Assembly (NCBI GenBank): GCA_024641855.1
Contig: JAHECG010000001.1
Span: forward strand, 1 to 64,000
Length of the DNA stretch: 64,000 bases
Reading direction: 5' to 3'
DNA from: Betaproteobacteria bacterium
GTDB taxonomy: Bacteria; Pseudomonadota; Gammaproteobacteria; Burkholderiales; Thiobacteraceae
The notes under the pieces were generated by a model, which was not told the origin of the DNA, did no database searches, and saw only the letters and a list, made by a program, of their open reading frames with translations. This document shows positions 6,772 to 21,836 of the stretch, one piece after another; position 1 is the stretch's first letter, and each line of letters opens with the position of its first letter. The position numbers and the translations under genes were made by a program.

Positions 6772-8025
6772 CTAACGTTGATTTTTTAGTAGCCAGGCCA
6801 AGGCGGCGTTACCTGCGGCATGTCCGCTGGCGAAACAGGCGCTGAGCAAATAGCCTCCCGTAGGCGCTTCCCAATCCAGCATTTCTCCGGCACAAAATAC
6901 ACCGGGTAAGTCGCGTAGCATCAGATTCGTATCTAGGGATTCGAAGCATACGCCGCCAGCGCTGCTGATAGCCTCATTTAATGGGCGCGCTGCGATTAAG
7001 CGTAGTGGTAATGCTTTAATTGCCGCACCCAGCCGCTCGGGTTGCGCATAATCTTGCGCTGGAATTAATTCGCGCAGTAAGCCGGCCTTGACGCCTTTGA
7101 TGCCGAGTCGGCTTTGCAGGTGGCTGGATTGCGAGCGTGCGCCTCTGGGCCGCGCTATCTCGTCGATGATCTTTTGTTGTGTTTTGCCCGGTAATAAATC
7201 GAGATGAATGAGTGCATGTGCTTGGGCATCGATTGTTTCGCGCAACAACGCGGATAACGCGTAAATCAAGCTACCCTCAACACCGTTGGCGGTCACTAGA
7301 AATTCACCGGTTTTGTGGTGCGTGATACCGGACTGGTCGGTGAAACTGAGAGCCACGGATTTTACCGGATGGCCGGCAAAGCGCGCATTGAAGTGTGGAC
7401 TCCAGCCGACATCGAAGCCGCAATTTGCGGGACGCAGCGGTGCGATTATCACACCGCGTTGCGCTAGTAGTGGTACCCATGCACCATCGGAGCCCAGTCG
7501 GGACCAACTGCCGCCACCCAGCGCTAAGATGAACGCATCCGCTTGCACTGTGATTTCACCTTGGGGGGTAACAAATCGCAATGCACCATGCGTATCCCAG
7601 CCGATCCAGCGATGTCGCACATGAAAGCGTACGCCATGAGCGCGCAAACGATGTAACCAAGCGCGCAACAGCGGCGCGGCTTTCATATCGCGCGGAAAAA
7701 CGCGGCCTGAACTACCGATAAACGTTTCAATACCGAGGCCGTGGATCCAGTCGCACAAAGCGCTAGGAGGGAAGGGTTCCAGGAGCGATTGCAGCTGCGT
7801 GCTGCGTGTACCGTAGCGTGCAAGAAAAGTGGAAAACGCTTCGCTATGCGTGATGTTCATACCGCCTTTTCCCGCCATTAAAAATTTACGTCCGAGCGAG
7901 GGCATGGCGTCGTACACGTCGACCTGAACGCCGCCTAGCGTGAGCACTTCAGCCGCCATGAGGCCAGCGGGGCCGCCACCAATCACTGCGACGTGTCTGT
8001 GCGATGTTTTGTTACTTGGGATCAT
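6772..8025 (-). CDS. NAD(P)/FAD-dependent oxidoreductase (HI0933/TIGR03862-like flavoprotein)
   Basis: GGGPAGLMAAEVL, GRKFLMAGKGGMNITHSE, FCAGEMLDWEAPTGGYLLSACFASG. Confidence 0.88.
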   Translation of the reverse strand: MIPSNKTSHRHVAVIGGGPAGLMAAEVLTLGGVQVDVYDAMPSLGRKFLMAGKGGMNITHSEAFSTFLARYGTRSTQLQSLLEPFPPSALCDWIHGLGIETFIGSSGRVFPRDMKAAPLLRAWLHRLRAHGVRFHVRHRWIGWDTHGALRFVTPQGEITVQADAFILALGGGSWSRLGSDGAWVPLLAQRGVIIAPLRPANCGFDVGWSPHFNARFAGHPVKSVALSFTDQSGITHHKTGEFLVTANGVEGSLIYALSALLRETIDAQAHALIHLDLLPGKTQQKIIDEIARPRGARSQSSHLQSRLGIKGVKAGLLRELIPAQDYAQPERLGAAIKALPLRLIAARPLNEAISSAGGVCFESLDTNLMLRDLPGVFCAGEMLDWEAPTGGYLLSACFASGHAAGNAALAWLLKNQR

Positions 8026-15374: not shown

Positions 15375-16466
15375 ATGTTACTAGCCTTATTCCAGTGGTT
15401 GGCGCAAGGAGAGCACATTCGTGTGTTTAATGTATTCAATTACATTACATTGCGCGCTGTATTGGCAGCGTTGACCGCGTTGGCAATTTCATTCGTAGTT
15501 GGGCCAGGCATGATTCGCCGTCTAACGGCTTACAAAATTGGTCAGTCGGTACGTGACGATGGGCCGCAAACACATCTCGTGAAGGCCGGTACACCAACCA
15601 TGGGCGGCGCCTTAATTTTGGTGGCGATCTTAGTGGCGACTTTGTTGTGGGCCGATCTGAAAAACATATATGTCTGGGTCGTCTTGCTGATCACCGCAGG
15701 TTTCGGTGCCGTGGGCTGGGTCGATGATTATCGCAAAGTGGTGCATCGTAATCCAAAAGGATTGTCAGCGCGTGCAAAGTTGTTCTGGCAATCGTTGATT
15801 GCTCTGTGTGGCGTGGCCTTTATTACCTACAGTACCCATCTGCCTGCACAAACGGAATTGATCGTGCCGTTCTTTAAGTCGGTTGCGATCCCTTTGGGTG
15901 CCATTGGTTTCATGGCGCTAGCCTATTGCGTCATCGTTGGTACCAGTAATGCCGTTAATTTGACGGATGGTTTAGACGGCTTGGCGATTATGCCGACTGT
16001 GATGGTGGCCAGTGCCTTGGCAATCTTCGCTTATGTTGCTGGCAACGTAGTGTTCGCCAAATATTTGCAGTTGCCATATATCCCCGGTGCTGGCGAATTG
16101 GCGGTGTTCTGTGCCGCGATCGCGGGTGCAGGCTTGGCATTTCTCTGGTTCAACGCGTATCCAGCGGAAGTGTTCATGGGGGATGTCGGCGCCTTGGCCT
16201 TGGGCGGTGCTTTAGGTGTAGTGGCAGTGATCGTGCGCCAAGAAATCGTGCTGTTCATTATGGGTGGCGTGTTTGTGGTGGAAACCTTGTCGGTGGTATT
16301 GCAAGTGGCCTCATTCAAGCTCACCGGCAAACGCATTTTTCGTATGGCGCCGTTGCACCATCACTATGAATTAAAGGGTTGGAAAGAAAACCAAGTGGTG
16401 GTGCGGTTTTGGATCATCACCATGATTTTGGTGTTGGTTGGTTTGTCGACGTTGAAATTACGATGA
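15375..16466 (+). CDS. mraY: Phospho-MurNAc-pentapeptide transferase
   Basis: [34 protein letters not shown]. Confidence 0.97.
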
Positions 16467-16570
16467 ATTTATTTCACCACAGAGATGGTAGAGATCACAG
16501 AGAACACAGAGGAAATTCTTTCATGGGGTTCTCAGTGAGCTCCGTGATCTCTGTGGTAATAGGGTTTTAA
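16463..16570 (+). CDS. Putative 35-aa minicistron bridging mraY and murD (within repeat element)
   Basis: ATGA overlap with mraY stop; reads [38 protein letters not shown] 3 nt before murD ATG. Confidence 0.35.
16476..16557. repeat. Imperfect inverted repeat of CACAGAG type in mraY-murD spacer
   Basis: accacagagat...cacagagaacacagag versus ctcagtgagctccgtgatctctgtggt; right arm resembles 55698-55725. Confidence 0.8.
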
Positions 16571-16573
16571 GGT

Positions 16574-17941
16574 ATGGGCATGCAGATTGAAGGCCAAAAA
16601 ATATTGGTGCTAGGCCTGGGTGATACGGGCCTTTCCATGGTGCGCTGGTTAGTGCGCCATGGTGCGATCGTGCGCGCCGCCGATAGCCGTTCTGCGCCAC
16701 CGCATGCCGCATTGATTCGTGCGCAATGGCCACAAGTAGAAATCATGACCGGTGCGTTCAACGAAGCGACTTTCCAAAATATCGACTTGATCGCCATCAG
16801 CCCCGGGGTGCCTCTAGCCAGTTTGCCGAAGACGCAAGTGCCGATCGTGGGCGATGTGGAATTGTTTGCGCAAGCACTTGCGCCGCGAAGCAGTAAGGTC
16901 ATTGCGATAACTGGCGCTAACGGCAAAACCACAGTGACGGCCTTGTGCGGCGCAATGTGTCAGCAAAGCGGCGCGCGCACCGTGGTGGCAGGCAATATTG
17001 GGCTGCCGGTATTGGATGCGTTGTGTGAAATTGAAGATAACGCGGCGATGCCGGAAATTTTTGTGCTGGAGTTGTCGAGCTTCCAATTGGAAACGACTTC
17101 AACACTCAATGCTGATGCTGCAACCGTGTTAAATGTGACACAGGATCATCTGGATCGTTATGCCGATATGACGGCTTACGCCGCAGCTAAAGCGCGGATA
17201 TTCGCCGGTCAAGGTGTGCAATTATTGAATCGTGAGGATGCGTATAGCCAGGCGATGGCGTTACCGCAACACACGATTCAGAGCTTCGGCTTGGGTGCGC
17301 CGGCGAATGATGCTGAATGGGGTTTGGTACAAGTCGAAGGCGAAGACTGGCTGGCGCATGGGCAAGAAAAATTGCTGCCGTGCAAAGATATTCCGCTCGC
17401 CGGGCGGCATAACGCGGCGAATGCTCTGGCAGCACTGGGCTTGTGCCGTGCGATTGGTTTGCCGATGGCGCCCTTGCTTGTGGCCTTGCGTAGCTTTAAA
17501 GGCTTGCCACATCGCGTAGAAAAAATCGCAGAAATCGCGGGTGTAATTTTTTACGACGACTCGAAGGGCACCAATGTCGGCGCTACGGTGGCGGCCTTGA
17601 GTGGCATGCGTGAACCGGTGGTGTTGATCGCCGGTGGCGAAGGCAAGGGGCAAGATTTCTCACCACTCAAACCAGCATGCGCAACCCATGCGCGCGCTGT
17701 GGTGTTGATCGGGCGCGATGCGTCGCAGATCGAAGCGGCTATCACAGGATGTGGCGTGCCCTTGCATCACGCAACCGATATGGATGAAGCGGTGCGCATC
17801 GCGTTCCAAGCTAGTCAGCCTGGCGATGCGGTTTTGCTATCTCCTGCTTGTGCCAGTTTTGATATGTTCCGCAACTACGAGCATCGCGCGCAGGTGTTTG
17901 TAGCAGCCGTGGAAAAATTACAACAGGAGCGCGCGGCATGA
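16574..17941 (+). CDS. murD: UDP-MurNAc-L-Ala:D-Glu ligase
   Basis: [26 protein letters not shown]. Confidence 0.96.
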
Positions 17942-19104
17942 TGTTCTACGCAACCGCGATGAAGATGCAGCATGCCAAGCCGGATTACGACCAAGGCCTG
18001 TTGTGGACGGCTTTGTTGTTATTGGCCTTGGGCGCGGTGATGGTGTATTCGGCATCGATCGCGATTGCGGGTGCGAACCGTTATACCGGCTATCAAGAAA
18101 GTTACTACTTATTGCGGCAATTGGTTTATGTGGCGGTGAGTTTGCTGTTCGGTTTTATCGCTTTTCAATTCCCAATGCGCGCTTGGCAAAAAATGGCACC
18201 GTATTTGTTTATTGTCGGCATCGTGCTGTTGGTTTTGGTGTTGATCCCGGGCGTTGGGCGATCGGTGAATGGTTCGAAACGTTGGATATCGCTATTCGTT
18301 GTGAATTTACAACCGTCCGAATTAATGAAGCTATTTGCGGTGCTTTATGCCGCCGATTATTCGATTCGCAAAGCGGGGCACATGCAAAGTTTTACCAAAG
18401 GGTTTATGCCGATGCTCGTGGTGATGCTGTTCATTGGCGCATTGCTGCTGTTTGAACCGGATTTCGGCGCATTCGCAGTGATTATTGCCGTGGCGATGGG
18501 GATCTTGTTTTTGGGTGGCATCAATGGCCGCCAGTTTGGTAGCTTGATTGTGATGCTGGTCGTTGGCTTCGCTATCGTGATTTGGAGTTCGCCGTACCGG
18601 ATGCAGCGCATCATCGGCTTCATGGACCCTTGGGCTGATCCTTTCGGCAAGGGTTATCAACTGTCGCATGCGCTGATTGCATTTGGTCGCGGCGATTGGT
18701 TCGGCGTTGGGTTGGGCGGCAGTGTCGAAAAACTCATGTATTTACCGGAAGCGCATACAGACTTTTTGTTGGCAGTGATCGCAGAGGAGTTAGGTTTCGC
18801 TGGTGTGTTGATTGTGGTGCTGATGTTTGCCTACATTACCTTGCGAGCATTTGCAATCGGGCGCCAAGCCGCATCGTTGGAGCGGCCCTTTGCTGCGCTG
18901 GTCGCGCACGGTATCGGTATCTGGTTGGCGGTGCAGGCCATTATCAATATGGGTGTGAACATGGGCTTGTTGCCCACCAAAGGTTTGACCTTGCCGCTAC
19001 TGTCATTTGGCGGCAGCGGCATCGCCGCGAACTGCGTTGCGCTCGGTATTTTGTTGCGTGTGGATTGGGAAAGTCGGCAGTTGTTGAAGGGGTACGCGTC
19101 ATGA
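17938..19104 (+). CDS. ftsW: Cell division protein / SEDS glycosyltransferase FtsW
   Basis: Multi-TM SEDS protein; [27 protein letters not shown]. Confidence 0.96.
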
Positions 19105-19215
19105 GCAGGGAACAGGGGCCCCGCACAGTGGGGATGAGACCGCCCGCGAATGGCGCGTGGAGCCGACACGACCCTGCTTGCACTGGGTGGTGTTTGAAGA
19201 GGCGAGCGTCATGAG
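19081..19215. repeat. Duplicated translation-initiation junction flanking a roughly 100-bp insert
   Basis: gcgtcatgag at 19096-19105 and 19206-19215; imperfect similarity extends upstream (gaaggggtac / gaagaggcga). Confidence 0.65.
19101..19214 (+). CDS. Putative 37-aa minicistron bridging ftsW and murG
   Basis: ATGA overlap with ftsW stop and ATGA overlap with murG start (19211); GAAGGGG upstream; [37 protein letters not shown]. Confidence 0.4.
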
Positions 19216-20314
19216 TACGCCGCGAACAGTCATGATTATGGCAGGTGGAACCGGTGGGCATGTGTATCCAGGACTGGCCGTGGCGCAGGCTTTGCGCGAA
19301 CAGGGCTGGCATGTGGTTTGGCTTGGAACCAAGAATGGTTTAGAGGCCAAGTTGGTACCGGCACAGGATATTGAAATGGTGTGGCTGAAATTTGGCGGCG
19401 TGCGCGGCAAAGGTTTGATGCGCATGTTGTGGTTGCCGGCACAAATTATTTTGGCGTTTATCCAAAGTGCGCGCGCTATTTTTAAACATCGTCCAGATGT
19501 GGTGTTGGGACTGGGCGGTTACACCGCTTTTCCGGGCGGCATGATGGCCTCCCTGTTTAATCGGCCCTTAGTGATTCATGAGCAAAACTCCATTGCGGGC
19601 CTAACCAATCGTGTCTTAGCGTGTTTGGCGGAACAAGTGTTGGTGGCCTTCCCCAGCGCCTTTCAAGGTCCGAAAGATAAACCGATTCCTTGCGGCAAAG
19701 TAGTTGCCCAGTGTTGCGGCAATCCGGTGCGCGTGGATATCGCCGCGCTGCCTGCCCCGAGTGAGCGTTTGCAAAATCGCAGTGGCAAATTGCGAGTGCT
19801 GGTCGTCGGCGGCAGCCTCGGTGCGCAAGCCTTGAATGAAGCTGTGCCGCAAGCATTGAAATTGATCGATGCAGCGAGTCGGCCGGAAGTCGTGCACCAA
19901 GCGGGTATGAAGCATATCGCGCAATTGCAAGCCAATTACGCCGCAGCAGAAGTGAACGCAGAAGTACTGGCCTTCATCGACGATATGGCCGCGCGTTACG
20001 CCTGGTGTGATGTCGTGATTTGCCGCGCAGGCGCGCTGACCATTGCGGAATTGGCGGCAGCGGGTGTGGCGAGCGTGCTGGTGCCCTATCCCCATGCTGT
20101 GGACGACCATCAAACCACGAATGCCTTTTATTTGAGCTCGGCAGGTGCGGCGATTTTGATGCCGCAAAGTGAATTGACGCCGCAGAAATTGGCGCAACTG
20201 CTGGGTGAGTTCACGCATGAGAAATTGTTGGCGATGGCGCAACAGGCTCGCGTGTTGGCGCAGCCGGATGCGACGCGCATCGTCGCTGAGACGTGTATGA
20301 GGTTGGCGGCATGA
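19211..20314 (+). CDS. murG: UDP-GlcNAc:undecaprenyl-PP-MurNAc-pentapeptide transferase
   Basis: MIMAGGTGGHVYPGLAVA, HEQNSIAGLTNR, RAGALTIAELAAAG. Confidence 0.96.
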   Translation: MSTPRTVMIMAGGTGGHVYPGLAVAQALREQGWHVVWLGTKNGLEAKLVPAQDIEMVWLKFGGVRGKGLMRMLWLPAQIILAFIQSARAIFKHRPDVVLGLGGYTAFPGGMMASLFNRPLVIHEQNSIAGLTNRVLACLAEQVLVAFPSAFQGPKDKPIPCGKVVAQCCGNPVRVDIAALPAPSERLQNRSGKLRVLVVGGSLGAQALNEAVPQALKLIDAASRPEVVHQAGMKHIAQLQANYAAAEVNAEVLAFIDDMAARYAWCDVVICRAGALTIAELAAAGVASVLVPYPHAVDDHQTTNAFYLSSAGAAILMPQSELTPQKLAQLLGEFTHEKLLAMAQQARVLAQPDATRIVAETCMRLAA

Positions 20315-20448
20315 AAAAAAACTTTCAACGCAAAGACGCAAAGATCGCAAAGAACCCCCAAGTCGTATGGGGCCATGATTATCGAAACATGGGTTGTCTC
20401 TTTGCGTCCTTTGCATCTTTGCGTTTAACGCCTTTGGATTTGCAATGA
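20311..20448 (+). CDS. Putative 45-aa minicistron bridging murG and murC (within repeat element)
   Basis: ATGA overlap with murG stop and ATGA overlap with murC start; [45 protein letters not shown]. Confidence 0.4.
20327..20425. repeat. Inverted repeat of CGCAAAG type in murG-murC spacer
   Basis: aacgcaaagacgcaaagatcgcaaaga (20327 on) versus tctctttgcgtcctttgcatctttgcgtt (20397-20425). Confidence 0.85.
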
Positions 20449-21832
20449 AACACAAAGTCAAACACATTCACTTTGTAGGTATTGGCGGCGTCGGCATGAG
20501 CGGCATCGCCGAGGTTTTGCTGAACCTGGGCTTCAAGGTCAGCGGTTCGGATTTATCCGACAACGCGGCGACGAAGCGTTTAGCCAAGCAGGGCGCGAAG
20601 ATTTTTCACAATCATGCCGCCAGCCATGTGGAAAAGGCCGATGTGGTGGTGACCTCTACAGCGGTCAAAGCGGACAACCCGGAAGTGTTGATGGCACGTG
20701 AGAAAGCCATCCCAGTGGTGCCGCGCGCCATGATGTTGGCGGAGTTGATGCGCTTCAAACAAGGCATCGCAGTCGCAGGTACACACGGTAAAACCACCAC
20801 GACGAGTTTGATCGCCAGTGTGTTGGCAGAGGGTGGTTTGGATCCGACTTATGTGATCGGTGGTCGGTTAGAAGCGGCTGGCGCACATGCCAAGTTAGGG
20901 CAAGGCGAATGGCTGGTGGCAGAGGCGGATGAGTCCGATGCTTCCTTTTTGTATTTGATGCCCGTGCTGTCGGTCGTCACCAACATCGATGCCGACCATA
21001 TGGAAACCTATGGCCACGATTTCGAAAAACTGAAACAAGCGTTCGTCGATTTTATCCAGCATTTGCCGTTTTACGGCGTGGCGGTGTTGTGTGTGGATGA
21101 TCCACATGTGCAAGCGATCATGCCACGCTTAACGAAAGCCATTGTGACTTACGGCACAACGAAAAAAGCAGATATCCGCGCCACCAAAATTAAAGCGGCG
21201 GCGGGGCAAATGCAATTTCAAGTGACACGCAAAAGCGGCACTACGCTCGCCGTGACCCTCAATTTACCAGGCCATCACAACGTGCTGAATGCATTGGCAG
21301 CGATTGCGGTAGCGAGTGAATTGAATGTCTCCGATAAAGCGATTTTGAAGGGGTTGTCCGAGTTCAAAGGGGTGGGTCGGCGCTTCCAGCGCTATGGCGA
21401 AATTCCGCTGGCGAGTGGCGGCAGTTTCACCTTGATCGATGACTATGGGCATCACCCGGTGGAAATGGCGGCGACGATTGCTGCGGCGCGTGGCGCCTTC
21501 CCCAAACAGCGTTTAGTGCTGGCATTTCAGCCGCATCGCTATTCGCGCACGCGCGACTTGTTCGAGGATTTCGTGAAAGTGTTATCGAGTGTAGATGCCT
21601 TGGTGTTGAGCGAAGTGTATCCCGCAGGTGAAGCGCCGATTGTGGCCGCCGATGGCCGAGCGATGGCGCGTGCGATCCGCGTAGCTGGAAAGGTTGAGCC
21701 GGTATTCGTGGAAACAATTGGCGAGGTGCCGCAGACGATTATGAATTTGGTGCGTGCCGGTGACGTGGTGTTGACCATGGGCGCGGGTTCGGTCGGGCAA
21801 GTGCCGGGCCTGTTGGTGCAGACCGGTGAAGC

Positions 21833-21836
<4 letters not shown>
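20445..21836 (+). CDS. murC: UDP-MurNAc:L-Ala ligase
   Basis: [30 protein letters not shown]; the ORF-track extension upstream is encoded by the repeat. Confidence 0.96.

Follow-up and report, generated by a model that had tools for sequence, protein, structure and literature searches.

Open reading frames bridge inserts at ATGA gene junctions in the dcw clusters of Betaproteobacteria

Three interrupted junctions in one dcw cluster

The dcw cluster of a betaproteobacterial MAG lies in the 64,000-nt stretch of DNA analysed here (the window). Inserts of 107 nt (mraY/murD), 106 nt (ftsW/murG) and 130 nt (murG/murC) separate neighbouring genes at three of its junctions, and each insert is spanned by one ORF (minicistron) that opens at an ATGA shared with the upstream stop. 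The -4 overlap is found exactly at seven further dcw junctions of the window, while murF/mraY (27 nt), murB/ddl, ddl/ftsQ, ftsQ/ftsA and ftsA/ftsZ are without it. The features of the region are as follows.

15375-16466, plus strand: mraY (PF00953 match)
16463-16570, plus strand: minicistron 1, mraY/murD; 35 codons and TAA; ATGA with the mraY stop (mraY ends at 16466); ends 3 nt before the murD ATG at 16574
16476-16557, plus strand: CACAGAG-type dispersed hairpin repeat, the bulk of minicistron 1; arms 16476-16505 and 16528-16557
16574-17941, plus strand: murD (named by sequence and dcw order)
17938-19104, plus strand: ftsW (named by sequence and dcw order)
19084-19105, plus strand: junction duplication, upstream copy; ftsW tail and ATGAG; 18/22 identical to the downstream copy
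19101-19214, plus strand: minicistron 2, ftsW/murG; 37 codons and TGA; ATGA at both ends (ftsW stop 19104, murG ATG 19211)
19194-19215, plus strand: junction duplication, downstream copy; second Shine-Dalgarno (SD) sequence (GAAGAGG) and murG start
19211-20314, plus strand: murG (coordinates confirmed)
20311-20448, plus strand: minicistron 3, murG/murC; 45 codons and TGA; ATGA at both ends (murG stop 20314, murC ATG 20445)
20317-20435, plus strand: GCAAAG-type dispersed hairpin repeat inside minicistron 3; arms 20317-20353 and 20399-20435
20445-21836, plus strand: murC (named by sequence and dcw order)

The three bridging ORFs had been described in a first-pass annotation, and their coordinates, codon counts (35, 37 and 45) and ATGA starts were all confirmed, as were the ends claimed for them (exact ATGA closure with murG and murC, and a stop 3 nt before the murD ATG). 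Stop/start geometry is accordingly -4 at both ends of minicistrons 2 and 3, and -4 and +3 for minicistron 1. Minicistron 2 has the SD sequence GAAGGGG (-8.0 kcal/mol) from the ftsW tail, and that of minicistron 3 (-6.4) comes from the murG tail; the SD of murC itself is weak (-3.1), and minicistron 1 has none (0.0 kcal/mol). Rfam covariance models gave no matches at the gathering threshold between window positions 8000 and 33000, a Pfam search with the three minicistron peptides returned none, and no plus-strand promoter-like site was detected between 16000 and 20700, inserts included. The GC-rich 106-nt insert contains just two stops, both in the same forward frame, and its reverse frames are stop-free, such that most of its frames are open. 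Within the window alone, the bridging frames exceed chance only weakly; the comparative set described below makes the excess highly significant.

Composition of the inserts and the same junctions in sister genomes

The first-pass annotation placed two of the three minicistrons in repeat elements and described the three as different in sequence, and both points hold: the mraY/murD and murG/murC inserts are dispersed hairpin repeats, and the three inserts are mutually unrelated. The two repeats form long stable hairpins (z -4.2 and -5.0, respectively) and belong to families dispersed in many copies across the host genome, in which 35 (CACAGAG-type) and 24 (GCAAAG-type) matching pieces were found, with several pieces per element. 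The ftsW/murG insert is not of the dispersed-repeat type, and is flanked by imperfect direct repeats of 22 nt, which are copies of the ftsW tail (including its SD) and ATGAG. Junction duplication was also considered as the origin of all relays (bridging minicistrons), but a clear duplicated tail or start was present in only ~12 of 89. In sister genome G006, the same repeat types also lie between convergent genes, between divergent genes and downstream of TAA stops, where several of their frames contain stops; they are therefore not elements dedicated to ATGA sites. A search of open-licence papers for the repeat motifs yielded nothing relevant.

We compared the same junctions in genomes related to the host (the sister genomes are WY5.bin77, GL140_5_metabat_36, MAG_47 and RBG_16_58_11), which carry either the intact -4 overlap or other inserts. 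At murG/murC, inserts of 106 nt (G006), 94 nt (G004), 103 nt (G002) and 55 nt (G008, from another genus) are all open with exact ATGA closure, the frame of an 87-nt insert in G007 closes 10 nt inside murC, and the -4 overlap is retained in G003 and G009. At ftsW/murG, G003 (L061) carries a homologue of the window insert that is likewise 106 nt long and open, and the 62-nt inserts of G002 and G004 are joined in frame to MurG. The latter inserts (L063 and L062, respectively) are repeat-like, and possibly provide MurG with an N-terminal extension of ~22 residues, which differs between the two species. At mraY/murD, G003 has a 46-nt gap behind TAG with no relay, and the short minicistrons of G006 and G002 end 11-13 nt before the start. 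This junction is frequently not coupled in relatives, and given also that minicistron 1 has no SD, mraY/murD is the weakest of the three cases. No relative surveyed has an overlap at ftsA/ftsZ, where L063 contains a large insert (329 nt, with a run of N).

Bridging frames across relatives

To extend the comparison, dcw genes were called in ~160 loci (L060-L219) from Betaproteobacteria and some Gammaproteobacteria, with Methylotenera, Nitrosovibrio, Pseudogulbenkiania, Cupriavidus and Gallionella among the sources, and 300 gaps of 25-299 nt were reduced to 234 non-redundant inserts. Where the upstream stop lies in an ATGA (129 inserts), the relay frame contained 0.0086 stops per codon, and the remaining frames 0.029 and 0.026; no relay-frame stop depletion was found for CTGA, TAA or TAG contexts in the same set of 234. 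The first-pass annotation had proposed scanning the dcw operons of relatives for an excess of open bridging frames over shuffled inserts, and such an excess is evident. Inserts whose relay frame matches that of the downstream gene (gap mod 3 = 2) were excluded here, because a miscalled downstream start would give the same picture. Among the ATGA inserts of at least 40 nt that were left, 61 of 71 had an open bridging frame, compared with 33 and 35 for the other frames and a shuffle expectation of 37.4.

The position at which bridging frames close is also skewed. Of the class-1 inserts (gap mod 3 = 1, the frame ending on the next ATGA) that reach 40 nt or more, 49 of 54 were open versus 28.7 expected (z 6.4), with z near 0 in CTGA and TAA/TAG contexts. 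The exact-closure class outnumbered the alternative out-of-frame class 54:17 (p 1.3e-5), and when only open frames were considered, those closing on the next start outnumbered the other out-of-frame class 49:12 (p 2e-6). The joint p for openness and exact closure was ~1e-15 before strict removal of related hosts. Retaining one insert per junction per host cluster gave a p of 6e-16 (75% MurG clusters, 66 inserts), and stricter removal of kinship gave 1.7e-5 (65% clusters, 24 inserts).

Homologous inserts of unequal length differ mostly by multiples of three (94/103, 151/160, 109/118, 103/127, 130/145 and 73/142 nt), and by lengths not divisible by three in a few cases (L093, L147, L163, L184 and L216). 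Differences between homologous minicistrons are spread evenly over codon positions (124:123:145, p 0.31), compared with 201:125:514 in the neighbouring genes of most of the same species pairs, and by this codon-position test no purifying selection on the minicistron amino acid sequence was seen. The frame is thus guarded and the peptide is not, which favours translation itself over a small-protein function as the thing maintained. At murG/murC, the SD that serves murC at intact junctions (-6.6) has passed to the minicistron (-6.2), and the displaced murC has a weaker one (-3.9). Across all junctions, the SD of relayed genes is not weaker than that of non-relayed genes (-5.6 versus -4.5), so independent initiation may contribute. 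Compensation by a stronger SD in non-relayed genes was not seen; if anything, the reverse applies.

The 197 non-redundant inserts of at least 40 nt comprise 43 exact relays, 44 closing near the start, 44 fused in frame (an ambiguous class), 21 whose frames close early, and 45 without a start at the upstream stop, the last concentrated at mraY/murD, murC/murB and murF/mraY. At murG/murC, 25 of 34 are relayed or fused. The first-pass proposal that inserts at coupled junctions are tolerated only when they form a bridge is therefore upheld in part. Selection for an open bridging frame is supported well beyond the window by stop depletion in the ATGA frame only, the excess of exact closure, the mostly frame-preserving indels and the unconstrained peptide, but "only when" overstates the case, given the 21 inserts of the 197 that close early and the 45 that lack a start.

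Some relay ORFs of the survey share sequence features. A peptide motif, (S)REQGPR/CLP..., is common to relay ORFs of different dcw junctions and lineages (L180, L184 and L204 at murG/murC; L067 at murE/murF and mraW/ftsL; L061 and window positions 19101-19214 at ftsW/murG), and its recurrence suggests a dispersed element family. Other relay ORFs start with a truncated N-terminus of the downstream gene product, either at murG/murC (MKHKVKxIHFVG... in L081, L094, L132, L147, L148 and L149) or at ftsW/murG (MurG, MSRTILxMAGGTGG... in L090, L115 and L135). These look as if an insertion into the gene start had been followed by a duplication restoring it.

Relays were also sought outside dcw in 1.19 Mb of the G006 genome, using rough gene calls and gene names based on a reading of the proteins without database search. 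An ATGA stop was followed by a gap of 25-299 nt in 14 cases, of which only nine were open. Clear relays include a repeat-made one between an ABC-transporter ATPase and its permease (L267), which is exact if translation is taken to start at an ATG 18 nt upstream of the called one, and one ending in TGATG (L246); the relay frame of L237 ends 14 nt before a pepP-like gene. Repeats contribute coding sequence at two more sites (both in gene orientation). At L230 8438-8605, a CACGGAG-type repeat constitutes an exact relay of 57 codons that links an SDR gene to a lytic-transglycosylase-like gene, likewise a clear case. At L275 junction 13665, a GCAAAG-type repeat supplies the C-terminus of a RibF-like protein (...NRQDAKSAKIG), and the same repeat gives a 19-codon ORF running 7 nt into an ileS-like gene.

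Reinitiation across the bridge and competing explanations

Purifying selection probably keeps a translated bridge for termination-reinitiation after insertion. Under this model, the second gene would originally be translated by termination-reinitiation across a 4-nt ATGA overlap, at which stray DNA (dispersed hairpin repeats or partial junction duplications) then lands. The old start codon, overlapping the upstream stop and often keeping its SD, would now open a minicistron, and ribosomes would read through the insert, including any hairpin, terminate at or next to the displaced gene's start codon, and begin translation anew from it. Bridges that close early or end far from the next start would be purged by selection, so that the frame is kept while the peptide drifts. 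In the window, we infer that the minicistrons are translated and that MurD, MurG and MurC output depends on the bridge. Coupling is nearly abolished at distances of 20-38 nt in Escherichia coli and Haloferax (PMC10666635), and an unbridged 100-nt insert would therefore be expected to be uncoupled.

The main rival is Rho polarity, whereby an open frame keeps ribosomes on the mRNA and blocks Rho termination between essential genes, with reinitiation being incidental. It likewise predicts a frame open from the upstream stop, and because the inserts contain no plus-strand promoter-like site, the downstream genes need read-through transcription. However, anti-polarity predicts no preference for a closure site, contrary to the 49:12 bias towards closing on the next start (p 2e-6), and on its own it seems an unlikely explanation. 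The benefits of anti-polarity and reinitiation may nevertheless operate together.

A further alternative stems from MIRUs, short repeats located at start codons of mycobacteria (Supply et al. 1997, as described in PMC12548453). The internal ORF of a MIRU couples via a -4 overlap to the displaced gene, and is thought to preserve its expression (PMC12548453). The ftsW/murG and murG/murC inserts are alike in that their ORFs overlap both neighbours at DTGA, which at mraY/murD applies to the upstream end only. If the window inserts were comparable mobile elements, targeting DTGA and built to contain an open frame, selection at the site would not be required. MIRUs are described as behaving so (PMC12548453), and the two window repeat families have a low stop content in some frames. 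We consider this very unlikely, however, as the inserts are mutually unrelated, the G006 copies outside coupled junctions contain stops in several frames, and the other two frames of the same pooled inserts are open only about half the time. No single homologous repeat family confined to coupling sites was found among the three window inserts. MIRUs are one mycobacterial family, whereas here there are many unrelated inserts in Betaproteobacteria, including intergenic repeats and junction duplications, and the frame is a property of the site rather than the element. Mycobacterial MIRUs are a direct precedent, and relative to the open-licence literature searched, the novelty lies in the breadth of the pattern, which extends over unrelated inserts at several junctions in many lineages.

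Chance deserves still less credence. Short GC-rich inserts are often open, as about half of random frames are, and the three could simply have been picked out (the 106-nt window insert being open in most frames), but the pooled statistics, with internal frame and context controls, refute this on the survey set. Least credible of all is that the minicistrons encode genuine small proteins that have their own functions, for although open frames are conserved between related species, codon positions are even (unlike in neighbouring genes), Pfam gave no match, and the sequences are unrelated between lineages.

Selection for a translated bridge also bears comparison with other systems. Rickettsia palindromic elements are repeats kept in frame inside proteins, to which the ftsW/murG inserts of G002 and G004 fused to MurG are similar; those elements sit within proteins, whereas relays end before or at the next gene. 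ATGA/TGATG termination-reinitiation pairs (PMC6728339, PMC10666635) have the same overlap geometry and the same strict distance dependence, but overlap directly, whereas here an insert separates the genes and the relay ORF restores the overlap. Coupled uORFs (the iraD uORF, PMC5574718) and synthetic coupling cassettes (PMC11602170) likewise use a short ORF to deliver ribosomes to the next gene. However, the former is regulatory and the latter are designed, while relays have originated many times through insertion, with no indication of a conserved peptide.

In operons of essential genes, it is difficult to test whether ATGA overlaps matter in vivo or simply reflect compact genome design. Insertions that occurred in nature provide an evolutionary assay, in which a guarded frame and a free peptide point to selection on translation across the junction. 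We see an even chance that this reflects a general rule, whereby unrelated DNA in a translationally coupled junction leads to a relay ORF with a meaningless peptide being kept or evolved to hand ribosomes across. If true, insertions would represent natural mutational scans that reveal the operon junctions where coupling is needed in vivo, and essential coupled operons would continually give rise to new translated small ORFs. Relays also account for a class of short ORFs that annotation would overlook or mistake for small-protein genes, and suggest a simple design rule for placing sequence between coupled genes.
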